Below the pieces are notes generated by a model. The model was not told where the DNA came from and did not search any database. It saw nothing but the letters and a program-made list of their open reading frames with translations. This document shows, piece by piece, positions 28,315-58,798 of a stretch of 64,000 nucleotides of DNA. This DNA comes from Trichocoleus desertorum NBK24 (GTDB taxonomy: Bacteria; Cyanobacteriota; Cyanobacteriia; FACHB-46). Position 1 is the first letter of the stretch, and every line of letters begins with the position of its first letter. The stretch spans positions 4,481,628 through 4,545,627 of the forward strand of contig NZ_CP116619.1 of the NCBI RefSeq assembly GCF_030409055.1. The letters run 5' to 3'. A program made the position numbers and the translations under genes.

Positions 28315-29229
28315 ATGACCACAGATACAATTCGTCAAAGAGAGCAGAGAACAGGCTGGATTCTAGTTACCCCGGCGCTTCTGTTGCTGCTGCTCGTATT
28401 TGCTTATCCCATCGGTCGGGCCTTTTGGGAAAGCTTTTTTACTAAAAACCTGGGTAGTGAACTTCAGCCTGTGTTTTCTGGGGTGGAAAACTATACCCGG
28501 ATGGCGTTGGATGGCCGCTTCTGGCAGAGCCTCCGCAACACCACCATATTTACGGTTGCCTCGGTTGTCTTGGAACTGTTGATTGGGATGGGGATTGCTT
28601 TGGTCTTAAACCAGGCTTTCCGGGGTCGAGGGATTGTGCGCACGATCGCGATTCTCCCTTGGGCTTTACCCACCGCCTTGATCGCCCTCGCTTGGACTTG
28701 GATTTTCAACGACCAGTACGGCGTGGTGAATGACATTTTGCAACGGCTTGGGTTGATTGAAACTGGGATTAACTGGTTAGGCGACCCCACCCTCGCCATG
28801 ATTGCGGTCATCATTGCAGACGTTTGGAAAACGACTCCTTTCATCAGCATTCTGTTGTTAGCTGGATTGCAATCTATTTCTAGTGATCTGTATGAAGCTC
28901 ATGCCCTGGATGGCGCTAGCGCTTGGCAAAGCTTCCGACAAATCACACTGCCGCTGTTGATGCCCCAAATTCTGATTGCGGGGCTGTTTCGCTTTGCCCA
29001 ATCCTTTGGCATCTTCGACCTGATTGCCGTGATGACCGGAGGTGGCCCTGGAGGGGCGACAGAAACCGTTTCGCTCTATGTCTACTCCACTGTTATGCGC
29101 TATCTAGACTTTGGCTATGGAGCAGCCCTAGTCGTTGTCACCTTCTTACTGTTGGTGTTGGCAGTCGCGATCGCCAACTTCTTACTCAGCAAACTCAGAG
29201 CCAGAGCGGCAGGAGTAGAAACCCGATGA
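28315..29229 (+). CDS. Sugar ABC transporter permease 1 (MalF/UgpA-type)
   Basis: A 304-residue, six-helix permease. The coupling motif EAHALDGASAWQSFRQITLPLL and the FAQSFGIFDLIAVMTGGGP loop are characteristic of the MalF/UgpA/SugA subfamily. It pairs with the next gene to form the channel. The stop overlaps the next start (ATGA at 29226-29229), indicating coupled translation. GGAGC lies upstream of ATG 28315. Confidence 0.93.
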   Translation: MTTDTIRQREQRTGWILVTPALLLLLLVFAYPIGRAFWESFFTKNLGSELQPVFSGVENYTRMALDGRFWQSLRNTTIFTVASVVLELLIGMGIALVLNQAFRGRGIVRTIAILPWALPTALIALAWTWIFNDQYGVVNDILQRLGLIETGINWLGDPTLAMIAVIIADVWKTTPFISILLLAGLQSISSDLYEAHALDGASAWQSFRQITLPLLMPQILIAGLFRFAQSFGIFDLIAVMTGGGPGGATETVSLYVYSTVMRYLDFGYGAALVVVTFLLLVLAVAIANFLLSKLRARAAGVETR

Positions 29230-30128
29230 CAACCCTTGATCGGCCCCCAGGCTCTCAATCAGATGAAATAGCTGTCGCTCAGCAGCCACCGAAGCCTGGT
29301 TTTTCCTGGCAACGTCTAGGACTACCGATCGCCGCAGTCCTGATTGCGGTGTTCTGCTTGGCTCCCATCCTCTGGCAGTTGCTTACTTCAATCAAAGTCA
29401 ACACCGACATTTCAGCGGTGCCTACGGTTTATTTTCCCACCCGCTTCACCCTGAATCACTACACAGAGCTGTTCACACGCCGCCCCTTCCTGCAATATGT
29501 CCTTAACAGCTTCCTGGTCTCTATCCTCTCAACGCTTTTAGCACTGGGTTTAGGAGCACCCGCTGCCTACGCCTTAGCCCGAATGCGGATTCCTGGTGAG
29601 AAGGCAGTGCTCGCCGGAGTTCTCATTGTGACGCTGTTTCCCTACATCTTGTTGTTTTTAGGGCTGTTGGAAGTTGTGCGATCGCTAGGCTTGGGCAACA
29701 ACTACCTATCTTTGATCATTCCCTACACCGCCATTAACCTGCCACTGACCATTCTGGTGATGCGGAGCTTCTTTCAACAGCTACCCCGTGACCTGGAAGA
29801 TGCCGCCAAAGTAGACGGCTTCAACACCTGGCAAATGCTGACGCAGATTGTTTTGCCCATGACCTTGCCCGCTCTTGTCACCACTGGCATCCTCACCTTT
29901 ATTTCCGCCTGGAATGAGTTTATCTTTGCCCTCACCTTCATCACCCGTGAGGACATGAAAACCATCCCTGTTGCCGCAGCCCAACTCGGTGGTGCCTCCA
30001 TCTTTGAAATTCCCTACGGCCCGATCGCCGCAGCTACCGTCCTCGGCACCTTACCGCTCGTCATCCTAGTGCTGTTATTCCAACGCAAAATTGTCCAAGG
30101 ACTCACTGCGGGAGCGGTGAAAGGATAA
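29226..30128 (+). CDS. Sugar ABC transporter permease 2 (MalG/UgpE-type)
   Basis: A 300-residue, six-helix permease with EDAAKVDGFNTWQMLTQIV as the coupling helix and ISAWNEFIFALTFIT as the MalG signature. A frame open further upstream is an artefact of the overlapping first permease; ATG 29226 in the ATGA overlap gives a normal length and a short cytosolic N-terminus. It ends in GAVKG, as MalG-type permeases do. The ATPase gene follows after 13 bases. Confidence 0.93.
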   Translation: MTTLDRPPGSQSDEIAVAQQPPKPGFSWQRLGLPIAAVLIAVFCLAPILWQLLTSIKVNTDISAVPTVYFPTRFTLNHYTELFTRRPFLQYVLNSFLVSILSTLLALGLGAPAAYALARMRIPGEKAVLAGVLIVTLFPYILLFLGLLEVVRSLGLGNNYLSLIIPYTAINLPLTILVMRSFFQQLPRDLEDAAKVDGFNTWQMLTQIVLPMTLPALVTTGILTFISAWNEFIFALTFITREDMKTIPVAAAQLGGASIFEIPYGPIAAATVLGTLPLVILVLLFQRKIVQGLTAGAVKG

Positions 30129-30141
30129 ATCTAAAATCGCT

Positions 30142-31221
30142 ATGGCTAAACTCGAATTACAAAACCTAAATAAAACCTATACCCCTAAAGTTGTTCCGGT
30201 TAAGGATGTCAGCTTGAGTGTGGAGGAAGGTGAATTTCTGACCCTACTAGGGCCATCGGGTTGTGGGAAATCCACGATCCTGCGGTTGATTGCGGGTCTA
30301 GAAGCTCCGACACGAGGCAATATTTCCATTGGGGGTCGAGATGTCAGTCGTATGAGTCCCGGCGATCGCAACATTGCAATGGTGTTCCAAAGTTACGCCC
30401 TCTATCCGCACCTGACGGTCTACGACAACATTGCCTCTGGCCTAAAACTCCGAGGCAAGCTCTCCGGTGAGGAAATTCGCCAACGGATTAGTGAGGTGTC
30501 TCATGTGCTGGGATTGGATGAGCTGATGAGCCGTAAACCGGGGCAGCTCTCTGGAGGACAGCGGCAACGGGTAGCAGTCGCGCGAGCTTTAGTCCGACGA
30601 CCAGATGTGTTTTTATTGGATGAACCGTTGAGTAACTTAGATGCTTTGCTTCGAGAGCATGTGCGAGCTGAACTGAAGCAACTCTTTGAATCTCAAAATA
30701 CTCCGGTTGTCTACGTAACTCACGACCAAACAGAAGCTATGACGCTTTCGACCAAGGTGGCAGTACTTTCTAACGGTTCTGTTCAACAGCTGGCGGCTCC
30801 TCATCGCATCTACACCCATCCTGCTAATCAATTTGTGGCGGGGTTTGTCGGTAGCCCTCAGATGAACTTGCTGACACTACCTTGTCAAGGTAATCACGCT
30901 TTGTTGGGAGATGCCAAGATTCCTTTGCCACCAGGCATGACTAGCCCGAAACAAGTTGTGTTGGGTATCCGACCCGAACATGTGGCGTTAGCCCACACTG
31001 AGACTCTCCCAGCAACAGTACAGGGCAAGCTATTTTTAGTAGAGAACCTGGGAATGCAGAACTTAATTAGTGTTCAGGTGCCGCATCAGCAATCTCAAAT
31101 TAGGTTGCGATCGCTATTGCCCACAGATCAAAAGTGGGACGGTGATGCTGTGACGCTGGCTCTGCCCTTGGATACCATCCACTGGTTTGATGTAGAAACA
31201 GGCGATCGCCTCAACCCCTAA
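30142..31221 (+). CDS. Sugar ABC transporter ATPase (MalK/UgpC-type)
   Basis: A 359-residue ATPase with Walker A GPSGCGKST, Q-loop MVFQSYALYPHLTV, signature LSGGQRQRVAVARAL, Walker B VFLLDEPLSNLD and H-loop YVTHDQTEAMTL. From about 240 on comes a MalK-type regulatory/TOBE region (QVVLGIRPEHV, VENLGMQNLISV). It powers the importer encoded just upstream. MalK-type subunits sometimes serve several importers. The following gene is convergent, so the operon ends here. Confidence 0.94.
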   Translation: MAKLELQNLNKTYTPKVVPVKDVSLSVEEGEFLTLLGPSGCGKSTILRLIAGLEAPTRGNISIGGRDVSRMSPGDRNIAMVFQSYALYPHLTVYDNIASGLKLRGKLSGEEIRQRISEVSHVLGLDELMSRKPGQLSGGQRQRVAVARALVRRPDVFLLDEPLSNLDALLREHVRAELKQLFESQNTPVVYVTHDQTEAMTLSTKVAVLSNGSVQQLAAPHRIYTHPANQFVAGFVGSPQMNLLTLPCQGNHALLGDAKIPLPPGMTSPKQVVLGIRPEHVALAHTETLPATVQGKLFLVENLGMQNLISVQVPHQQSQIRLRSLLPTDQKWDGDAVTLALPLDTIHWFDVETGDRLNP

Positions 31222-42399: not shown

Positions 42400-44406
42400 C
42401 TAAAACATCATATCTAGATCAAATTCTCGCAAGTCAAGGGTGTGAATGTGCCCTTGGTGAGTTGCTTGCTGCCAAGTAGCTAGGAGAACTCCATAGTTAT
42501 TAAAAGAAGCGATCGCCGTAGCCACCGTGGGTGAGTGAACAGTGGGTGAGTGAGGGGAATTAGCAATGGGAGCGGCAATCTGACCGACTTGCTGCCCTAC
42601 TTCATCTAACAAAACGATTTGCCCTTGCTGATCGGCCAAAATATAGCCCCAAGGCGTAGCCGTAAAAAAGGTTGGCTCTATACTCACCCGGATGCGGCGT
42701 ACTCGCAGCGGCTTTAGATCAATCAGTACCATTGAGTGAGTACAACCTGCTTCTTTACCTAAGATGCGGTAGGGAATCGCACTGAGAACCACCGAATCAA
42801 CCGCGAGAGGCAGCAACCAAGAGCCTAAACGCTGGCCTCGCCGGGTAAAGCCTGCAATCAAGGTGCCAGTGCTCAACTCATCTGAAAAACCATCACTCAG
42901 CAGCTTAGTACTACTAGAAAGTACGCCAGCCGCCATGCTATCCGTAGAATTATTGCCCCAAGTGGAAATGGCTGCGATATGCCTGGAGTCCAAAGCTAGG
43001 ATGAGACAAGGGCCAGCAGTTGGATACTCAATGGTTGCTTGAGGCGCAAATTCCGGTTCTTGTTGGCTCAGTTGACGATGCCAGACTGTAATTTTTGCGG
43101 TTGTTTCAATCTGACGAGTCGCGGTTGCCAGCCAATGGCCTTGCGGTTCTACAGTCGCCACAAAGTCAGACTCAAGTGGTACTAAACATTGAGTCAATAG
43201 CCGTCCATCACTGCTAGCTGCGGGAATTGATTTTTCTAGTGGCAGTAAATAAATCGAACGAGAGGCGATCGCAAAACAACCTTGAGGACGTGCCACCAAA
43301 GCGTGAATGGCTTCTGGGATAGCTACTGCGCCTACCAGTTGCTTCTGAATAGACAGAGGTGAAGTAGTTGTAGAAATTAGCTGATCTGTAATAATCTCCC
43401 CATTGCAGGAGCTAGAAGTGCTGCGATAGAGCCACTGACCCGCTTCTGAAGCAATCACGGAGATATCAGACATCGGGGCAATTAAAGGCTCTTGCTCTAA
43501 GCTATGAAAAGCGCAGGGAGGTACTAAGGCTTCTGGAACTGGCCGCAGGGGCAATCGTACCGACTCTAGTAACTGGGAACTCAGCGCTGCTACCGCAGTT
43601 TGGGTCGCGCTCAACATTTCCGCAGCCGACTGAAAGCGACGAGCGGGCAGTTTTTGTAGTGCGCTCAGCAAGAGTTGACTAATTTCGGCTGGGACGACCT
43701 CTGGAATGGTGACAGGTGAATTGAGGTGAGCCGACATTAGCTCTACAGGCGAACCCGAAAAGGGCCGATAACCTAGGATTAACTCAAAGAACAAGATGCC
43801 CACAGCGTAGAGGTCAGAAGAAGGGAAATACTGACCATAAAAGCGTTCGGGGGCCATATAGGCAGGCGAACCCGTATTACCTGCCTCCGGGCCTAGCTCT
43901 TGACTTAAGCGAGCAATGCCAAAATCTGAAATCCGCGCCGTCCAACCACTCGATTGAGTATTCAGTAAAACGTTTTCTGGCTTGATGTCACAATGCACAA
44001 TGTTGCGCTGATGGGCATGAGCTAAGCCTGCCAGGATATCTAGCACCAATTTTAAACCTTGAGCCAAGGTGATACACGCTGAACCTTCCATCAGGTTGCG
44101 TAGCGTGCCCCCCTCGCAGTAGTCCATGACCAAGTAGCGACTTCTGCGACCATGCTCTAGAGCGTGACAGGTCACGATATTGGCATGCTGCAAGCTCAGC
44201 AAGAAGCGCAATTCCCGGAGAAATTTATGAGTGGGAAAGCGTTGATGATCTAATTCTTTGAGGGCAACTAGACGGCCAGTTTTACGATGACTTGCACAAA
44301 ACACACGACCAAATTGCCCCTGACCCACAAGTCCGAGTAACCGATACTTAGAGCGTTTCAGTGGTTGGGAGGCCAGTGGATCAGGACGAACTAACCGATT
44401 TGACAC
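42400..44406 (-). CDS. Ser/Thr protein kinase with C-terminal beta-propeller-like region
   Basis: A 668-residue protein. Residues 20-280 are a Hanks-type kinase: GQGQFG, VALKEL (Lys50), Glu65, HCDIKPENVLL (HCD in place of HRD), DFG 161-163 and PAYMAPERF. From about 300 on come repeated short beta-strand units (for example GHWLATATRQ, GYILADQQGQIVLLDEVGQQ) suggesting a propeller sensor. It ends the V4R/ferredoxin cluster, the position held by spkG (slr0152) in Synechocystis. HSPTVHSPTV is a small internal repeat. The start is GTG 44406, 14 bases after the V4R gene. Confidence 0.85.
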   Translation of the reverse strand: MSNRLVRPDPLASQPLKRSKYRLLGLVGQGQFGRVFCASHRKTGRLVALKELDHQRFPTHKFLRELRFLLSLQHANIVTCHALEHGRRSRYLVMDYCEGGTLRNLMEGSACITLAQGLKLVLDILAGLAHAHQRNIVHCDIKPENVLLNTQSSGWTARISDFGIARLSQELGPEAGNTGSPAYMAPERFYGQYFPSSDLYAVGILFFELILGYRPFSGSPVELMSAHLNSPVTIPEVVPAEISQLLLSALQKLPARRFQSAAEMLSATQTAVAALSSQLLESVRLPLRPVPEALVPPCAFHSLEQEPLIAPMSDISVIASEAGQWLYRSTSSSCNGEIITDQLISTTTSPLSIQKQLVGAVAIPEAIHALVARPQGCFAIASRSIYLLPLEKSIPAASSDGRLLTQCLVPLESDFVATVEPQGHWLATATRQIETTAKITVWHRQLSQQEPEFAPQATIEYPTAGPCLILALDSRHIAAISTWGNNSTDSMAAGVLSSSTKLLSDGFSDELSTGTLIAGFTRRGQRLGSWLLPLAVDSVVLSAIPYRILGKEAGCTHSMVLIDLKPLRVRRIRVSIEPTFFTATPWGYILADQQGQIVLLDEVGQQVGQIAAPIANSPHSPTVHSPTVATAIASFNNYGVLLATWQQATHQGHIHTLDLREFDLDMMF

Positions 44407-49202: not shown

Positions 49203-49449
49203 AGGTGCTCTAAACGCTAAGTTTCATTTATTTTCGATTTCGCTGCAATGGATTCGGTTCAATTTATGCCACAAAGTAGTGTGGGGAGGAAATTTGGTTT
49301 TTGATTGCCTAACTAGCATCATCCTAGAATCCATACAATACATGCACCCACTATCCCAAATTTCACATTTCCCTAAATTCTGTAAATTCTGTTAATTTCT
49401 GTTCATTGACTTGGTGCTACTAGGCTCCTTTTTCGCAGGTTTAGCCGTT

Positions 49450-50457
49450 ATGTCTGACCTTCCTTTTACCTTGGATCAACTCCGTATTCTCAAAGCGATC
49501 GCCGCTGAGGGAAGCTTTAAGCGGGCCGCTGACAGTTTATATGTCTCCCAACCTGCTGTCAGTTTGCAAGTACAGAATCTAGAGCGGCAACTCGACGTGC
49601 CGTTGTTCGATCGCGGTGGCCGTCGGGCGCAATTGACTGAAGCAGGTCACCTACTCCTCAGTTATGGGGAAAAGATCTTAACTCTATGTCAAGAAACCTG
49701 TCGCGCGATCGAAGATCTGCAAAATCTCCAAGGTGGCACCCTAATTATTGGAGCGAGTCAGACAACCGGAACCTACCTACTTCCCCGGATGATTGGTCTG
49801 TTTCGGCAGCAGTATCCTGATGTCTCGGTGCAGTTGCACGTTCACTCCACCCGTCGTACGTCCTGGAGTGTAGCAAATGGGCAAATCGACCTAGCGATCA
49901 TTGGTGGCGAGGTTCCTCCCGAACTACAGGACTCATTAGAGATTATTCCCTACGCTGAAGATGAACTCGCACTCATCTTACCTGTGTTTCATCCTTTTGC
50001 TAGGGTTAGCACGATTCAAAAAGAAGACCTTTATAAACTGCAATTTATTGCGCTGGACTCGCAGTCCACCATTCGTAAGGTAATCGATCAAGTTCTAACT
50101 CGATGCGGAATTGAAACTCGTCGCCTCAAGATCGAGATGGAGCTGAATTCTATTGAAGCAATCAAAAATGCGGTGCAGTCGGGCTTAGGCGCTGCCTTCG
50201 TCTCTGTTTCTGCCATTGAGAAGGAGCTGCAAATGGGAGTCTTGCACCGGGCCAGAATTGATGAAGTGGTGGTGCAGCGGATGCTCTCTGTGATTCTCAA
50301 TCCCAATCGTTACCGCTCGAAAGCTGCTGAAGCGTTTCTAAATGAGGTTTTGCCTCGCTTCAGCAATCCGACTCAGGCGATGAAGCAGCATGATAGTGAA
50401 TTACTAGAATCACCCGCTTTGACAGCTGTGGTTCCTAGCTCTAGCGGTATGGACTAG
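49450..50457 (+). CDS. rbcR: LysR-type regulator RbcR (Ycf30-type)
   Basis: A 335-residue LysR regulator. The winged HTH spans [20 protein letters not shown] and [20 protein letters not shown]; the effector domain has [20 protein letters not shown] and [13 protein letters not shown]. It matches the RbcR/Ycf30 group that activates RuBisCO operon transcription in cyanobacteria and plastids and senses carbon-fixation metabolites. ATG 49450 opens [11 protein letters not shown] as in that group; an earlier TTG-initiated form is unlikely. It is divergent from the roadblock-like gene, with about 250 bases of spacer. Confidence 0.9.
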
Positions 50458-50488: not shown

Positions 50489-51913
50489 ATGGATCTTTAC
50501 TGCACCCGTCCAGGCTGTCCCAGACCGCAAAACTCATGTCCCGATCTAGATAACACTCAAATCTTAAAAACAGTGGCGCAGAAATATTGCACCACCTGTG
50601 GCATGTCCTTAATTTTAATTGGTCGCTACTTGCCCCTAAAGCTGTTGGGTAAAGGTGGCTTTGGGGCCGCATTCCTGGCCCGCGATCGCTATACTCCAGC
50701 GATGCGGCAATGTGTGGTAAAGCAATTTCAACCTTCTGGCGATCTCAATCCTGAGCAGATAGAAGTTGCTAAAAATCTGTTTGAGCGTGAAGCAGAAGTT
50801 TTAGAACAACTGGGCAATAACCACCCCCAAATTCCTGACTTATTTGCGTTTTTCTCTTTGACGGTGCCGAGCCGCACTGCGAACAAGCAAGACGAGTTTT
50901 TCTACTTGGTGCAGGAGTTTATTGACGGCCAAACCATGGAGGAGGAGCTAGCTCAAAAAGGACAGCTCTCTCCAGATGAGGTGGCGGAAGTTTTGGTTGA
51001 AGTGCTGAAGATTTTGCGGTTTGTGCATGACAACCATTCGATTCATCGCGACATTAAACCCTCTAACATCATGCGGCACCGAAATGGCCGCATTTACTTG
51101 CTAGATTTTGGTGCAGTTAAAAAGGCCGCAGGCGCTGCTGCAAAAACATCGACAGGGATCTACTCCACTGGATATGCTCCACCCGAACAAACTTCTGGTG
51201 GCCAGGTCTACCCTGCTACAGACTTATACGCCCTTGCTGTCACTTGCCTTCATCTACTCACTGGAAAAGAACCCGCCGAGCTCTTGGATTCCTATAGTAA
51301 TTCTTGGAATTGGCGATCGCAGGTAACAGTAAGCGATCGCTTGGCTGCGGTTTTAGATCGGATGCTTTTATCGGCACCTAGTCAGCGCTTTCAGTCTGTG
51401 GCCGAAGTCACAGCAGCGCTAGCGCCCAAGCCTACTCCATCTGTTTCCCCGCCCCTTTCTGTTTCGCCCGCTGCTTCGGTAACTCCCCCTCCGCCTGTCC
51501 CAGTTCTGCCTCCGCCTGTTCCCGTTCCTGTCACTCCACCTGCCCCTCCTGCTGTAGTTCGTCCGCAATTCTCCACCCTAGAGCTAATTGGTGGTGCGGC
51601 GTTTACAGGATTTGAGGGCGGGCTGATTGCGATCGCCTTAACGAGCCTCTTGCAACCGATCTGGCTGGGAGCGGGTGTTTCGCTCTTGGTCCTGAGTGCT
51701 TTAGTGTTGGCTCAGGCTCGTCGGGTGATTGAAAAGGTGGATCTGGTGATTATTACCGGAATCACGTTAGGGCTAATGTATCTGCTTAGAGGTTTCTGGA
51801 GTCTCGCTTTTGTCCCTAATGTTTTGATTGTGGCAACTTTTGCGGGACTGATTGCGATCGCTGTGGCTGTTCTATTTCGTCTGGTTTACACCCTATTGTC
51901 TCGTTTTCTGTAG
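50489..51913 (+). CDS. Ser/Thr protein kinase with zinc ribbon and C-terminal membrane domain (SpkB-type)
   Basis: A 474-residue protein. An N-terminal cysteine motif (C5, C10, C17, C34, C37; YCTRPGCPRPQ...YCTTCG) is like that of SpkB. Kinase at 45-310: GKGGFGAAF, VVKQF (Lys78), IHRDIKPSN (186-188) and LLDFGAVK (206-208). About 313-362 is a Pro/Val-rich linker. About 365-474 has three to four membrane helices. It starts a three-gene run with two anchored binding proteins (9 and 6 bases apart), implying an extracytoplasmic sensing role. ATG 50489, 31 bases after rbcR. Confidence 0.9.
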   Translation: MDLYCTRPGCPRPQNSCPDLDNTQILKTVAQKYCTTCGMSLILIGRYLPLKLLGKGGFGAAFLARDRYTPAMRQCVVKQFQPSGDLNPEQIEVAKNLFEREAEVLEQLGNNHPQIPDLFAFFSLTVPSRTANKQDEFFYLVQEFIDGQTMEEELAQKGQLSPDEVAEVLVEVLKILRFVHDNHSIHRDIKPSNIMRHRNGRIYLLDFGAVKKAAGAAAKTSTGIYSTGYAPPEQTSGGQVYPATDLYALAVTCLHLLTGKEPAELLDSYSNSWNWRSQVTVSDRLAAVLDRMLLSAPSQRFQSVAEVTAALAPKPTPSVSPPLSVSPAASVTPPPPVPVLPPPVPVPVTPPAPPAVVRPQFSTLELIGGAAFTGFEGGLIAIALTSLLQPIWLGAGVSLLVLSALVLAQARRVIEKVDLVIITGITLGLMYLLRGFWSLAFVPNVLIVATFAGLIAIAVAVLFRLVYTLLSRFL

Positions 51914-51922
51914 GCAGGATTC

Positions 51923-52999
51923 ATGGCTCAGAAAAATGAAACGGCTACGCTCGTCTTGGCGCTTTTAATTACTCTGGGGCTGGTGGGTGGAGGGACTCTA
52001 TGGCTGATGAAGCGCTCTGGTTCTTCCCTGGGCGGATTGCTCCAGCCAACGCCGCAAAATAGTTCTAACTCGCGGAGCAACTTGCCACCTGCCGTTGCTA
52101 GCCAACCAGGGTCTCAGTTGCAAGGGTTTGCAGATGTCAAAGATGTTCCTTCAGGAGCTTTTAAGTATGGTGGTAGCACTTCTTGGGCTCCGTTGCGCTT
52201 AACCGTTGACTCCGCAGTTCAGGCAGCCAAACCAGAATTTCAATTGCGCTACATAGGGCCTGACTCAGGTTCGGCTAGTTCTGGCAGTGGGATTCGGATG
52301 CTGATCAACGATCGCTTAGCTTTTGCTCAGTCTTCTCGACCCATTTTAGAGTCAGAGTCGAGTAAGGCAGCGCAACAAGGGAAAGAACTCAAACAGATTC
52401 CAGTGGCGATCGATGGAATTGCTGTTGCGGTTAATCCGGGGCTGAATTTGCCAGGATTGACATTGGCACAACTGAAAGCCATTTACACAGGCCAAATTAC
52501 GAACTGGAATCAAGTGGGAGGGCCTGATCTTAGGATTACACCTTACACCCGTCCTACAAATTCTGGCGGTACAGTTGAACTCTTTTTAGAAGATGTGTTG
52601 GAAGGGCAAACGTTTGGCCCTACTGTAGAATTTGTGGCGACCACCACACAAGCGATTCGCAAGTTGGCAGAAGATCCGGGTGGAGTTTACTTTGCTTCAG
52701 CGCCTGAAGTCGTGCCCCAATGTACGATTAAGCCTTTGCCTCTATCTCAGCAAGGCAGTACTTTTGTCGCTCCCTACCAAGAGCCGTTAGTTGCTCCCTC
52801 TCAATGTCCTGCTCAGCGAAATCGGCTGAACACGGACGAGTTTCAGCAAGGACAGTATCCTTTAATACGAAATTTGTACGTGGTGATTCAACAAAATGGT
52901 CAAGCTGAGGAGCAAGCAGGCGAAGCTTACGCTAATTTTTTGTTGACAGAAGAAGGCCAGACTTTAATTGCTAAAGCAGGTTTTGTCAGAATTCGTTGA
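51923..52999 (+). CDS. Membrane-anchored PstS-like substrate-binding protein
   Basis: A 358-residue protein. It opens KNETATLVLALLITLGLVGG (TM anchor, no lipobox), then a Ser/Gln linker, then a PstS/SphX-type phosphate-binding fold (YGGSTSWAPLRL, RLAFAQSSRP, IDGIAVAVNPGL, LKAIYTGQITNWNQVGG, YTRPTNSGGTVELF). No ABC permease or ATPase is nearby; instead it sits between a Ser/Thr kinase and a second anchored binding protein. A sensor role is therefore more likely than transport. Its N-terminal anchor is paralogous to that of the next gene. Confidence 0.8.
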   Translation: MAQKNETATLVLALLITLGLVGGGTLWLMKRSGSSLGGLLQPTPQNSSNSRSNLPPAVASQPGSQLQGFADVKDVPSGAFKYGGSTSWAPLRLTVDSAVQAAKPEFQLRYIGPDSGSASSGSGIRMLINDRLAFAQSSRPILESESSKAAQQGKELKQIPVAIDGIAVAVNPGLNLPGLTLAQLKAIYTGQITNWNQVGGPDLRITPYTRPTNSGGTVELFLEDVLEGQTFGPTVEFVATTTQAIRKLAEDPGGVYFASAPEVVPQCTIKPLPLSQQGSTFVAPYQEPLVAPSQCPAQRNRLNTDEFQQGQYPLIRNLYVVIQQNGQAEEQAGEAYANFLLTEEGQTLIAKAGFVRIR

Positions 53000-53005
53000 G
53001 CCGCT

Positions 53006-54448
53006 ATGTCTCCTAAAAATGAAACGACCGTTCTTGCCGTCTCGTTGCTAATTACCCTAGGTCTTCTGGGTGCTGGTGCTTGGTGGCTGACGCATCGCAC
53101 ACCTGGTTCGGGGATTGGGACTTTGTTGGGTTCTCCAGGTGACGGGGTTGCTAATCCTGATCCGTCTGTCCCAGGGGCAGCGCAAATTAGCTTCGGTGAA
53201 CAATCTCTAACGGGTGGGACGCTTAGCTCTAGCAAGCAACAAGGCATGAAAGCCTTAGCTCAGGAAAGCTATGACCAAGCCGTTGCTAATTTTACGGCAG
53301 CTTTACAAGAGCAGCGCAATGACCCAGAGACTTTGATTTTTCTCAATAATGCTCGGATTGGTCAGCGAAAAAGTTATGCGATCGCGGTTGTGGCACCCGT
53401 TAAGACTGACTTGAACGGAGCATTGGAACTTTTTCGGGGGGTGGCTCAAGCCCAAAGCGAAATCAATCAGGCTGGAGGCATTAATGGTGCTTTCCTCAGA
53501 GTGGCGATCGCTAATGATGATAACGATCCAGATACCGCTAAACGACTCGCTGCTACCTTGGTTGAAAACCAGCAAATCTTAGGTGTGGTCGGTCATTACT
53601 CTAGTGATGTGACCTTAGCCACTAAGCCAGTGTATGCAGATGGAGAGCTAGTGGCAATTTCTCCGGTCAGTACTTCGGTGGAGCTATCAGCTTCAGGAGG
53701 CCAGCCAGCAGGTTCCCCCCACTATGTTTTCCGCACTGTTCCCAGCGATTATGTAGCGGCTAGAGCCTTAGCTGACTACATGCTGACGAAGTTGCAGAAG
53801 CAAAATGCTGTGGTTTTCTTCAACTCGCAAAGCAATTACAGTAAATCGCTGAAGTCCGAATTTGTCAGTTCAGTTCTGACAAGGGGTGGGCAAGTGGTAG
53901 CTGAATTTGATTTGTCTGACCCCAGCTTTAGTGCTGCTAAGAGCATTGAGCAAGCGCTGAAGCAAAATGCTGAAGTGTTGATGTTGGCAGCGAACACGAG
54001 TAGTTTAGACAGGGCTTTGCAAGTGGTGCAACTCAATCGCCAACGCCTGAGTCTTTTAGGCGGCGACGATGTTTACACACCCAAAACTTTAGAAATAGGC
54101 GGTGATGCTGCGGTTGGCATGGTCTTATCTGTGCCCTGGCATATTGATGGCGATCCCACGGCTAAATTTCCTAGCCAATCTCGACAACTGTGGGGCGGAG
54201 ATGTCAACTGGCGAACCGCTCTCGCTTATGATGCGACTCAAGCACTTATCGCAGGTTTGCAGCGCAATTCTACTCGCGCAGGTGTTCAGCAAACTCTATC
54301 TAGCTCAGATTTTTCAACCACGGGTGCGTCTGGAACCATCCGCTTTTTGCCATCCGGCGATCGCAACGCTTCTGTCCAATTGGTGAGGGTTGTACCAGGA
54401 CAGCGATCGGGAACTGGATACGATTTTGTGCCCGTACCATTACAATAA
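53006..54448 (+). CDS. Membrane-anchored LivJ-like substrate-binding protein
   Basis: A 480-residue protein. Its first 35 residues (KNETTVLAVSLLITLGLLGA) duplicate the anchor of the preceding gene. About 75-115 is one TPR-like hairpin (ALAQESYDQAVANFTAALQE). About 122-480 is a type-1 periplasmic-binding (LivJ/amide) fold: YAIAVVAPVKTDLNG, INQAGGINGAFLRVAIANDD, VVGHYSSDVTLATKPVYADG. No transporter genes accompany it. It is the last gene of the kinase run, six bases after the PstS-like gene. Confidence 0.8.
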   Translation: MSPKNETTVLAVSLLITLGLLGAGAWWLTHRTPGSGIGTLLGSPGDGVANPDPSVPGAAQISFGEQSLTGGTLSSSKQQGMKALAQESYDQAVANFTAALQEQRNDPETLIFLNNARIGQRKSYAIAVVAPVKTDLNGALELFRGVAQAQSEINQAGGINGAFLRVAIANDDNDPDTAKRLAATLVENQQILGVVGHYSSDVTLATKPVYADGELVAISPVSTSVELSASGGQPAGSPHYVFRTVPSDYVAARALADYMLTKLQKQNAVVFFNSQSNYSKSLKSEFVSSVLTRGGQVVAEFDLSDPSFSAAKSIEQALKQNAEVLMLAANTSSLDRALQVVQLNRQRLSLLGGDDVYTPKTLEIGGDAAVGMVLSVPWHIDGDPTAKFPSQSRQLWGGDVNWRTALAYDATQALIAGLQRNSTRAGVQQTLSSSDFSTTGASGTIRFLPSGDRNASVQLVRVVPGQRSGTGYDFVPVPLQ

Positions 54449-54628: not shown

Positions 54629-57600
54629 ATGAATTACGTTCGGTTGCCAGGTCAAGTTGCAATTTGCTTGACTTGGTCAAGCTTAAATCTTCTCTTTCAG
54701 CATTTGCAAACTGATCTAAAAGAGCAAAGTTGGTTACGGGCTTTTCTCTTTTTTGGGGAGAACTCAGAACTTTGCTTGCATCTACAGCAATCTTGGTATG
54801 AAGCTGCGCAAAAAACACGTTTTTCTACTGATGTTCTTGACCGTTCTTTCCCTAATATTAAAACCAGTTGTTCTGATGCCAAGGTGGCTTTAAGCCTACC
54901 TTTTGTTTCTCTGCCAGATGTTGAAGCGGGTCTTTTAATATTAAGCTCAAAATTCAATCTTTGTTTGCAGCTCCAAACAAGTTTTGGTTCTCAGTTCGAT
55001 CATCAATCTAATTTAGACCCGGATTCAGGTATCTGGGAAGTTAGCTTGATTTTTGATGGTCAAGCGATCGCCGATTTCCTAAAAGTTCCTGTCATTGCTA
55101 CAGCAATTCCTCATTGCTCCGAATTAACTGCCGCAGACTTTCATCATCAGCCTCAAATGCTACGGCGCTTTTGGCTGCAACTTCTTCAGCTCATGCCTAA
55201 CTATAGGCAGCAAAACGCGAAGACAGTTTTAACTACGGCACCTGTTGCACCCACTTCATCTACGATTGCTAGCACATCTTCCTCCATTCCCTCTCCTGAC
55301 GCTGCGCTAGCTTTCTCATCAGAGTTTTCTCCAGATTTCTCTCAGTTCTGTAAATCCGCCTCGTTGCCAATGGATAGCCTAAATCAGTTACTGCAACATG
55401 CACCCATTGGTATCCTCTACGAAAGTCTAGATGGCGGTATCTTAAGGGCCAATACTGCTTTTTGCCGTTTGATTGGCTATAGCGAAACTGAACTGCGGCG
55501 CTTAGATTACTGCGCTATTACTTATGCTCCCGATCTGGCTTTAGAACTCAGGTTGCTACAGCAAATCATTCAAGGACAACAACGAGAAATTACCCTAAAA
55601 AAGCGATTTCTCTCCCAGGATGGCTCCATTATTTGGACTGAAGTAAAACTGGTCCTAGTTGGCGAACTGGAAGCTGAAGACAGCTATGTTCTGATTTTTG
55701 TTACAGATCTCAGCGATCGCCAGAAGGTAGCGGTAGAAATTCAACAGCGACGAGAGCGCGAAGCTTTGCTGAGTAAAATTTCAGCTCAAATTCGGACAAC
55801 TTTTGATTTTTCAGCCATCTTGCAGTTAGCTGTATCGCAACTACGAGAGGCACTAGATACAGATCGGGTCTTAGCTTATCAATTACTGCCCGACCAGAGT
55901 GGTACCTGTATTGCCGAGTCGGTCAACTTGCCCTATCCGCAGATGTTAGGGCAGAATTTTCCAGCCGAGTGTATTCCTCCTCCTCACTTAGAGTCTTATC
56001 GGCTTGGCAAGCTCTGGTGTGTTGCCAATGTTGAGCAAGAATCTTTGGCAGACTGTCACCAAGCTATGTTGAAGCAGGTGCACACCCGCAGCATGGTTGC
56101 CGTCTCCATTCAACACATTCAAGAGGCATTAGATCCCCAAAAGCGCAGTTTATGGGGTTTGCTGGTTGTCCACCACTGTCGAGCCCCTAGAAATTGGACT
56201 GCCGACGAGCAACAACTCATCCAGGCCGTTGCCGACCAAGTTGCGATCGCTTTAGAGCAAGCCAATCTTTTGCAACAGTTGCAAGCCTATGCCCAAGAAT
56301 TAGAAGGTCGGGTCAACCAGCGCACCCGTTCCTTAGAGCGATCGCTACAGTTTGAGCAACTGATTCGCAACCTCACAGAAACTCTCCGTAAAGGCTTAGA
56401 TGAAGATCAAGTGCTGCAAGCTGCGGTCGAGGGTCTAGTAGAAACTTTAGCGGTTGACGGATGTTATGCCAGTCTGTTTCACTCACAACAGCAAGTCTTA
56501 GAAGTACGCTCCGAGTACTGCCAACCTTCCTTTGCCCAGTCCTTAGTTGGTCAATCTTTTAGCATTCAAAGTTGGCCTTCCGAGTGTCGCCAAAAACTTT
56601 TAGCAGGTGACGTTTGTACACATGAAGTCACTTTAGCGGCACTCCCAGATCTACCCTTACCTGTACCGCTCTGGAGCGATCGCCCTAGCCCAGATCAGTT
56701 AGACACCAATGCCACCGTGATTGCCCAACTGATTAGCCCCATCCTCGACGACCAAGGTTTGATTGGAGCTTTGTGTGTTTACCATACTCAATCTCGCCTC
56801 TTTGAGCCAGCGGAGATCAAACTGATCGAGCAAGTCGCCAATCAGTGCGCGATCGCCCTACGCCAAGCCTACTTATATCGACAAGAACATCAGCAACGAG
56901 CCAGCGCCGAACATTTCCGCTTGTTTCTAGAGAAATCAATTGACATCTTTGTGGAGTATGACCAAGCGCAACGCTACATCGCCATTAACTCTGCGGGGCT
57001 CGAACTCTTGGGATATCCCCTCCCCGAAATCTTGGGTAAAACGAACCAAGAGTTACTAGGCTCCTCCGCCCAAGAGCTGGATCACCTCATTCATCAAGCC
57101 TTCAAAACTGGAGAACCTGTTTTTGTCGATCACGAATTATCCCTGCCTTCTGGCTCCAGATTGTTTGAAACCATTTACACGCCAATCACCGATCCAGCAG
57201 GGATTGTTCAACGAGTAGTGGGAGTTTGTCGAGACATCACTGAATTTCGTAGGCAGTGGCAGCTCTTAGAAACCCAAAACCATCAACTGACCGAAACGAC
57301 TCGCCTCAAAGAAGAATTCATTGCTACCACCAGCCATGAGCTACGAACCCCTCTGACCGCAATCTTAGGCTTCTCCAACGTTTTGCTACAAGAATTTTTC
57401 GGTCAGGTGAATCCTAAGCAAAAAGATTACATCGAGCGCATTCATACTAGCGGTCAGCACTTACTGGATCTGATCAATGACATTTTAGATTTGTCACGCT
57501 TAGAAGCCGATCGCCTAGAACTCGAACTCCAGCACATTTTCATCAACGATATTTGTGAAAGTGCCATTAGTTTCATTCAAGAGCAAGCCGAGAACCAAAA

Positions 57601-58003
57601 CCTGCACGTAGAAATGGAGATTGAGCCAGAACTGGAATACATCGTGGCTGATCCCAGGCGGTTGAAACAAATGCTACTTAACTTAATGACTAATGCTGTG
57701 AAATTCACACCCACCGGAGCAGTGGGCCTGAAAGTTTACCGCTCTTGCCAGCAGCGATCCGACAATATTCCAGATACCATTAACTTCTTGATCTGGGATA
57801 CAGGCATTGGCATTGCTGAAGCAGACCAAGCTCTACTCTTTATGCCCTTCTCCCAAATTGACAGCTCTTTGTCTCGGCAGCATCAGGGTACGGGTTTAGG
57901 TCTTGTCATTACCCGTAAGTTGGCAGAACTCCACGGCGGTTCAATCACCTTAGAGTCGGCCTGTGGGAAAGGTTCACGTTTTATTTTGTCCTTACCGCTG
58001 TAA
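54629..58003 (+). CDS. Hybrid-sensing histidine kinase (PAS-GAF-GAF-PAS-HisKA-HATPase)
   Basis: An 1124-residue cytosolic kinase. An uncharacterised N-terminal region (1-190) is followed by a Ser/Thr/Pro linker, PAS (250-365), GAF1 (380-545), a coiled linker, GAF2 (580-750), PAS (762-875), HisKA with His903 in TSHELRTPLT, and HATPase with DTGIGIAE 1057-1064 and GTGLGL 1087-1092. GAF1 resembles cyanobacteriochromes: Cys476-His477 (LADCHQAML) and Cys448 at the DXCF-like position (PAEC), with LWGLLVVHHCRAPRNW. No receiver domain is fused and no response regulator is adjacent. Confidence 0.88.
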   Translation: MNYVRLPGQVAICLTWSSLNLLFQHLQTDLKEQSWLRAFLFFGENSELCLHLQQSWYEAAQKTRFSTDVLDRSFPNIKTSCSDAKVALSLPFVSLPDVEAGLLILSSKFNLCLQLQTSFGSQFDHQSNLDPDSGIWEVSLIFDGQAIADFLKVPVIATAIPHCSELTAADFHHQPQMLRRFWLQLLQLMPNYRQQNAKTVLTTAPVAPTSSTIASTSSSIPSPDAALAFSSEFSPDFSQFCKSASLPMDSLNQLLQHAPIGILYESLDGGILRANTAFCRLIGYSETELRRLDYCAITYAPDLALELRLLQQIIQGQQREITLKKRFLSQDGSIIWTEVKLVLVGELEAEDSYVLIFVTDLSDRQKVAVEIQQRREREALLSKISAQIRTTFDFSAILQLAVSQLREALDTDRVLAYQLLPDQSGTCIAESVNLPYPQMLGQNFPAECIPPPHLESYRLGKLWCVANVEQESLADCHQAMLKQVHTRSMVAVSIQHIQEALDPQKRSLWGLLVVHHCRAPRNWTADEQQLIQAVADQVAIALEQANLLQQLQAYAQELEGRVNQRTRSLERSLQFEQLIRNLTETLRKGLDEDQVLQAAVEGLVETLAVDGCYASLFHSQQQVLEVRSEYCQPSFAQSLVGQSFSIQSWPSECRQKLLAGDVCTHEVTLAALPDLPLPVPLWSDRPSPDQLDTNATVIAQLISPILDDQGLIGALCVYHTQSRLFEPAEIKLIEQVANQCAIALRQAYLYRQEHQQRASAEHFRLFLEKSIDIFVEYDQAQRYIAINSAGLELLGYPLPEILGKTNQELLGSSAQELDHLIHQAFKTGEPVFVDHELSLPSGSRLFETIYTPITDPAGIVQRVVGVCRDITEFRRQWQLLETQNHQLTETTRLKEEFIATTSHELRTPLTAILGFSNVLLQEFFGQVNPKQKDYIERIHTSGQHLLDLINDILDLSRLEADRLELELQHIFINDICESAISFIQEQAENQNLHVEMEIEPELEYIVADPRRLKQMLLNLMTNAVKFTPTGAVGLKVYRSCQQRSDNIPDTINFLIWDTGIGIAEADQALLFMPFSQIDSSLSRQHQGTGLGLVITRKLAELHGGSITLESACGKGSRFILSLPL

Positions 58004-58114: not shown

Positions 58115-58798
58115 TTAACGATTTGCTAGAGAATCGGCAGGCAGACACAACAAGTTATCGCCCTGATTGTAAATCAATCCTTTTTGGCGCAGCTTACCCA
58201 TCAAGCGTGTCACTGTGACACGAGTGGAACCGATCGCGCTACCAATTTGGGCATGGGTGAGAGACCAAGGCAGAAAATAACCGTTCTCGCAAGGTTCCCC
58301 AAATTCTTCGATTAATAAGGTGAGGAATCCTAATAAACGATCGATGGTGCGACGCTGCCCTAGAGTACTCAACCACAGTAGTTTGCGCTGGTGCTGGTAG
58401 CGGAAGGCATCTAGCACTTCGCGGCGAAAATGGGGCCAATTGTCCAGGTCATGCCAGTACATCCAAACCACAGAAGTTTGGTCTACGTGAGCATAACTTT
58501 GTAGGGTAAAGGGAGACTGAGCCACAATTTCAAAGGGTTGTCCTGCACCTACAAAGCCTAAGAAAGCTTCTTCAGGGCTAATGCGAGGCAAGCGTGAATT
58601 GCTAGTCGCACTGACTTGGGCGCTGCCGACTAATCGGACAGAACCTTTCTGCACAAGATACAGTAAGCCAGGGCGAGCTGGAATCTTTTCATCTTTGCTG
58701 AAGACACGACAGCGGTAGTGCTCCTGAGACCAATCTAAGATGCGCTGCCAGGTTAGGAAAGGCCGAGATGCTTCTGAAGGTGAGGATACTGAGTACAT
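58115..58798 (-). CDS. Crp/Fnr-family transcriptional regulator
   Basis: A 227-residue protein with an N-terminal cyclic-nucleotide-binding-like barrel (LLYLVQKGSVRLVG, EEAFLGFVGAGQPF) and a C-terminal HTH (SLTHAQIGSAIGSTRVTVTR, then LMGKLRQKGLIYN). The HTH is very close to that of NtcA, but the sensory half differs and lacks the arginine pattern of cAMP-binding Crp, so I do not call it NtcA. Its upstream spacer has a cluster of GTAC words and the palindrome GTGTAAACAC. Confidence 0.85.
   Translation of the reverse strand: MYSVSSPSEASRPFLTWQRILDWSQEHYRCRVFSKDEKIPARPGLLYLVQKGSVRLVGSAQVSATSNSRLPRISPEEAFLGFVGAGQPFEIVAQSPFTLQSYAHVDQTSVVWMYWHDLDNWPHFRREVLDAFRYQHQRKLLWLSTLGQRRTIDRLLGFLTLLIEEFGEPCENGYFLPWSLTHAQIGSAIGSTRVTVTRLMGKLRQKGLIYNQGDNLLCLPADSLANR

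Follow-up and report, generated by a model that had tools for sequence, protein, structure and literature searches.

A SpkF-type kinase operon with two membrane-anchored binding proteins in Trichocoleus desertorum, a likely nutrient-sensing complex

The window analysed here is a stretch of 64,000 nucleotides (nt) from the forward strand of Trichocoleus desertorum NBK24 (GCF_030409055.1, NZ_CP116619.1, positions 4,481,628-4,545,627). It carries an operon in which the gene for a Ser/Thr protein kinase is followed by genes for two membrane-anchored binding proteins, one PstS-like (SBP1, or S1 where gene orders are given) and one LivJ-like (SBP2, or S2). A check of the open reading frames (ORFs) of the window places all three on the + strand, with intergenic gaps of 9 nt and then 6 nt, exactly the layout given in an earlier note on this DNA. 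The features of the operon, in window coordinates, are:

50489..51913, + strand: Ser/Thr protein kinase of 474 amino acids (aa), assigned to the SpkF type, with 4-Cys prefix, kinase domain, Pro-rich linker and four hydrophobic helices
50501..50599, + strand: 4-Cys motif (residues C5, C10, C34 and C37), invariant in 7 homologues
50636..51394, + strand: protein kinase domain, residues 50-302 (Pfam Pkinase)
51584..51877, + strand: four-segment membrane tail, residues 366-463, from hydrophobicity (basis of profile A5)
51923..52999, + strand: SBP1, membrane-anchored PstS-like binding protein, 358 aa (Pfam PBP_like_2)
51923..52012, + strand: shared N-terminal anchor of SBP1 (MAQKNET...), from the anchor alignment
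52160..52954, + strand: PBP_like_2 domain of SBP1 with the conserved Cys pair C267/C295 (Pfam)
53006..54448, + strand: SBP2, membrane-anchored LivJ-like binding protein, 480 aa (Pfam Peripla_BP_6)
53006..53095, + strand: shared N-terminal anchor of SBP2 (MSPKNET...), from the anchor alignment
53234..53353, + strand: TPR-like helical segment of SBP2 ahead of the binding domain, seen by eye
53435..54391, + strand: Peripla_BP_6 domain of SBP2, residues 144-462, with S200, T223 and D354 invariant (Pfam)

The N-terminus of the kinase matches the NCBIfam model NF045510 ('4-Cys prefix') above its cut-off, and four hydrophobic segments lie behind the kinase domain. Both parts of the earlier description, a Cys-rich (zinc-ribbon) kinase with C-terminal helices, are found, but the 4-Cys motif is not distinctive: there are seven in the Trichocoleus desertorum NBK24 genome, and only the window kinase bears the membrane tail. 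The label SpkB-type, given in the same note, has to be exchanged for SpkF-type. SpkB (slr1697) likewise has a Cys-rich N-terminus and then a kinase domain, but it carries C-terminal pentapeptide repeats (PMC2176072), whereas the 474-aa window kinase lacks such repeats and has membrane helices instead, and the SpkB assignment was rejected on this ground. SpkF (slr1225) of Synechocystis PCC 6803 belongs to the class cbSTKI-TM of Zhang et al. 2007, whose members have transmembrane segments following the kinase domain (PMC2176072), and the window kinase has the same arrangement. The phosphopeptide published for slr1225 (residues 324-355; PMC4379935) is 74% identical over 31 residues to a 495-aa kinase of another genome (G076), and the match to the membrane tail lies in the same reading frame. 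This kinase also has Thr at 24 and 27, the positions of SpkF phosphosites whose phosphorylation goes up on nitrogen starvation (PMC4379935), a rise that fits nutrient sensing without proving it. The comparison used the phosphopeptide and T24/T27 rather than the full slr1225 sequence; together with the transmembrane segments it indicates that the window kinase is of SpkF type. The genus of G076 is called Synechocystis-like here on the peptide match alone. In the sampled Synechocystis-like genomes, unlike the window, the kinase gene is not adjacent to binding-protein genes; G076 does encode anchored LivJ-type and shorter PstS-like proteins, unlinked to it. The literature searched describes neither a ligand nor a sensor partner for SpkF. 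An AlphaFold model of the window kinase (7-row alignment) reached a pLDDT of 53, too low to judge the membrane bundle.

The two binding proteins align with each other only N-terminally (56% identity over 41 residues, E 6e-7), which bears out the earlier observation that both start with the same anchor. Among 17 anchors from several genomes the consensus is MxQKNET..L...L..T..L...G.WW, with M1, K4, N5, L10 and T17 invariant. Inspection by eye found no lipobox cysteine in SBP1 or SBP2, again as claimed before. Identity of the two anchors is 0.60 within a locus versus 0.54 between loci, no clear difference (ten rows, with the L101 row for SBP1 in the wrong frame), and the idea of their concerted evolution was dropped for this reason.

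The best match of SBP1 among solved structures is Sll0540 (PDB 9l8j), and it has the fold and most of the motifs of PstS and Sll0540, including GST and SSR. It differs in lacking a nearby Pst permease, in its conserved Cys pair, and in the SGT motif, which is GGT in all eight members of its profile family (A3) while Sll0540 keeps the Ser. Its NCBIfam ptsS_2 score, 141.4 of 206.6 bits, is below the curated cut-off. SBP1 probably senses a phosphate-related oxyanion, to judge from its motifs, and the change from Ser to Gly makes an oxyanion other than phosphate possible. The Cys pair (C267/C295 in the window) is kept in 21 of 23 PstS-type sequences, fused and free; of the exceptions, one has lost both and one keeps two, one of them shifted. 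Such conservation suggests a disulfide bond and would agree with a location outside the cytoplasm. SBP2 likewise scores below a curated cut-off (PRK15404, 82.2 of 477 bits for Liv). Its binding domain retains the amino-acid contact positions of LivJ/LivK: S79, T102 and E226 of LivJ, which we take to be the contacts to the amino-acid head group, correspond to S200, T223 and D354 (an Asp in place of Glu), none of which varies among 8 homologues. The predicted ligand is probably an amino acid or an amide-like molecule. Unlike LivJ/LivK, SBP2 has a transmembrane anchor and the TPR-like segment in front, and no LivHMGF genes nearby. The segment has no Pfam TPR match; a fused homologue (L058) does have TPR matches ahead of the domain.

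These sequence features bear on the reading that the two proteins are substrates of the kinase or partners of it in the envelope, for example scaffolds, whose folds have lost their ligands. The phosphate-contact Ser replaced by an invariant Gly leaves the ligand of SBP1 uncertain, and the conserved N-terminal KNE(T) offers a phosphorylatable residue, as this reading would have it; the LivJ-type contact positions invariant in all eight SBP2 homologues, and the PstS motifs (GST, SSR) mostly kept in SBP1, speak the other way, and we regard this reading as quite unlikely.

The best evidence that the separate binding proteins act with the kinase is that both folds occur elsewhere as C-terminal modules of kinases. 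SBP2 homologues encoded by long reading frames proved to be such fusions. The NBK24 genome itself encodes a 781-aa protein (L046:3371-5716) made up of a kinase, one hydrophobic helix and a LivJ-type domain, and there are kinase-transmembrane-LivJ-type fusions in other genomes (L057, L063, L065) as well as a kinase-transmembrane-PstS-type fusion (L073). As the kinase domain is necessarily cytoplasmic and a single helix follows it, the fused binding domain would lie outside the membrane. The LivJ-type domain is also found after a STAND-caspase (L049) and after AAA ATPases (L057, L058), and the PstS-type domain is joined to caspases (L070, L071) and to CHAT proteases (L066, L074). A second protein of the NBK24 genome (L047:9822-12230, G000:C1 about 5287821-5290229; 802 aa) joins CHAT to a LivJ-type domain that may be cytoplasmic, since no hydrophobic helix was detected between the two. 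The fusions of both binding folds to CHAT, caspase and STAND modules (L066, L070, L071, L074, L049) are possible nutrient-gated proteases.

Conservation was surveyed by profile in 386 genomes of the phylum, using the kinase membrane tail (A5), SBP1 (A3), SBP2 (A2) and the anchor (A4), and a kinase was counted as linked when SBP1 and/or SBP2 lay within 6 kb of the tail match. Linkage counts are lower bounds that cover only the matches listed, with few candidates scored per genome and many draft assemblies among them; linkage and co-occurrence counts are taken as they stand, uncorrected for shared descent. The kinase tail has 94 matches in 91 of the 386 genomes. In at least 51 of the 91 a binding protein is linked; it lies downstream of the kinase and on its strand in every one of the 51, and this set spans 36 genera and 14 families; related clusters are seen in other cyanobacterial records at L003-L009 and L016. 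Among the matches listed, the order behind the kinase is S1 (13), S2 (10), S1-S2 (9), S2-S1 (7) or S1-S1 (5), with others that include S1-S2-S1, so the common feature is a kinase and then a binding protein. The nearest gap is at most 100 nt in 33 of the 51, counted from the profile match and not from the stop codon. The kinase tail is present in 91 genomes, the anchor in 92 and both in 84.

Such linkage might also reflect a neighbourhood that is merely stable, in which functionally unconnected genes are held by shared descent between a LysR-type and a Crp-type gene. These two neighbours are conserved in related loci as well, so the whole region is stable, and linkage is broken in 40 of the 91 genomes, among the matches listed. 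Yet copy number and order of the binding proteins vary while they stay behind the kinase, linkage is maintained in 14 families, most gaps are short, and fusions of kinase and binding domain exist. An accident of descent is very improbable on this evidence.

Some loci deviate in composition. In Nostoc loci (L010-L014) the kinase lacks the 4-Cys motif, and the SBP1-like protein behind it begins with a different anchor. At L003:2504-6742 the SBP2 gene is truncated (275 aa), and behind it lies an unrelated ORF of 1045 aa, perhaps an insertion. Anchored proteins without an adjacent kinase are seen at L018, L021, L075, L093-L097 and L102; several are PstS-like, including a shorter Sll0540-like group.

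There are no ATP-binding cassette (ABC) transporter genes close to the operon. The nearest permease genes are ∼19 kb upstream (28579-30101), together with a MalK-like ATPase gene (30142-31221), and the next PF00528 permease downstream is ∼45 kb away. A BLAST search with the ABC proteins of this genome (E 1e-5) found no transporter genes in 16 related loci, in agreement with the earlier statement that neither permease nor ATPase is nearby; the single match at L059 is the LivJ-like protein itself. Lone ABC ATPases do lie close to a few of the anchored or fused genes that are unlinked (L046, L052, L055, L098); the absence of transporter genes is therefore best supported at kinase-linked loci.

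Both folds are nonetheless classic transporter binding proteins, the genome has many other ABC permeases, and it is common for orphan binding proteins to share permeases. SBP1 and SBP2 might then supply permeases encoded at other sites with phosphate and amino acids, with the kinase regulating that transport. We consider this unlikely, given the transmembrane anchors in place of a lipobox, the lack of neighbouring transporter genes, both in the window and in the 16 related loci, the use of the same domains as sensors in fusions to kinases, caspases and CHAT proteases, and the linkage to one kinase family in at least 51 genomes.

Judged from sequence, the operon likely encodes a two-input, nutrient-sensing kinase complex of SpkF type that takes no part in transport. 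The SpkF-type kinase would be in the cytoplasm, held at the membrane by its four helices, as hydrophobicity suggests. The two single-pass proteins would expose the PstS-like and LivJ-like domains outside the membrane, to which the fusions, the folds and the Cys pair point. Binding or release of ligand may then be relayed through the anchors or linkers to the membrane helices of the kinase, changing its activity while nothing is transported, and one kinase could integrate two nutrient signals. The anchor may plausibly serve to bring the sensors to the kinase, a putative role.

Several observations weigh against such a complex. Among the matches listed, no binding protein is linked within 6 kb in 40 of the 91 kinase genomes, most of which carry one at another place in the genome; all sampled members of one family (f6), which includes the Synechocystis-like genus, are unlinked among the matches listed. 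Co-occurrence of tail and anchor is confounded by shared descent. The anchor is found without the kinase tail in 8 of 92 genomes, and the tail without the anchor in 7 of 91; on these counts a further candidate, the anchor as a private docking tag of this kinase, was rejected. The caspase and CHAT fusions show that the binding domains are not kinase-specific. The net charge, 0 on the N-side of the anchor and about +1 on the C-side, favours neither orientation. The ligand of SBP1 is uncertain where an invariant Gly takes the place of one phosphate-contact Ser, and the AlphaFold model of SBP1 (8-row alignment, pLDDT 38) is too poor to check a C267-C295 disulfide. The earlier note had read the layout as that of a ligand-sensing kinase complex and not of a transporter, and had named a kinase unlinked in related genomes as evidence to the contrary. 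Its proposal stands on the conserved linkage, the absence of nearby transporter genes and the kinase fusions of both domains; its SpkB label was wrong, and linkage is kept in at least 51 of the 91 genomes and broken in the remainder, among the matches listed.

The nearest known system is GlnH-GlnX-PknG of Mycobacterium and Corynebacterium, in which one operon encodes a Ser/Thr kinase together with a binding protein but no ABC transporter, and which senses extracellular amino acids (PMC9769921, PMC6069109, PMC8546545). By analogy the logic appears to be the same and the construction different. In both, a binding protein is encoded with the kinase and without an ABC permease, a relay has four transmembrane segments, as in GlnX (PMC9769921), and a Cys-rich module is present, which in mycobacterial PknG is a rubredoxin (PMC9769921, PMC6069109, PMC8546545). 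PknG, however, is soluble and has a TPR domain of its own, whereas the window kinase bears membrane helices and gives no TPR match. GlnX is encoded as a separate protein, whereas here the kinase itself carries the four helices and the operon has no separate four-transmembrane gene; GlnH is a lipoprotein of one fold, whereas here the binding proteins are transmembrane-anchored and of two folds. With the relay fused to the kinase and binding proteins that are not lipoproteins, the operon falls outside the PknG-GlnX-GlnH group. No description of a cyanobacterial kinase with binding-protein partners was found in the open-access literature, which is weak evidence of novelty.

The surroundings of the operon are partly conserved. 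The gene directly upstream is:

49411..50457, + strand: LysR-family regulator, 31-nt gap upstream of the kinase, kept in many related loci

It is perhaps co-transcribed with the kinase operon. A Crp-type gene lies downstream (58115-58798), and LysR-type and Crp-type genes recur around the operon, as 10 and 11 of 87 neighbours scanned at 15 related loci. Between SBP2 and the Crp-like gene is a large PAS/GAF hybrid histidine kinase gene (54629-58003), which may be an insertion, as the Crp-like gene usually comes directly after the binding proteins in the related loci examined. A second Ser/Thr kinase gene is situated ∼6 kb upstream on the minus strand (42400-44406). Promoter and terminator scans gave no excess over shuffled sequence.

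The signals that activate bacterial Ser/Thr kinases are a long-standing question. On the reading given here, transporter-type binding domains would repeatedly have been co-opted as sensors, by kinases as well as by caspase and CHAT proteases. More tentatively, cyanobacteria may possess a kit of extracellular PstS-like and LivJ-like sensors, either fused to kinases, caspases or CHAT proteases or serving as separate anchored subunits of SpkF, which would make SpkF a dual receptor of phosphate-type and amino-acid-type signals. Should the operon indeed encode a nutrient-sensing kinase complex, a widespread family of cyanobacterial kinases would have a concrete input, the two binding proteins, testable in Synechocystis PCC 6803, for which spk mutants and phosphoproteomes exist.

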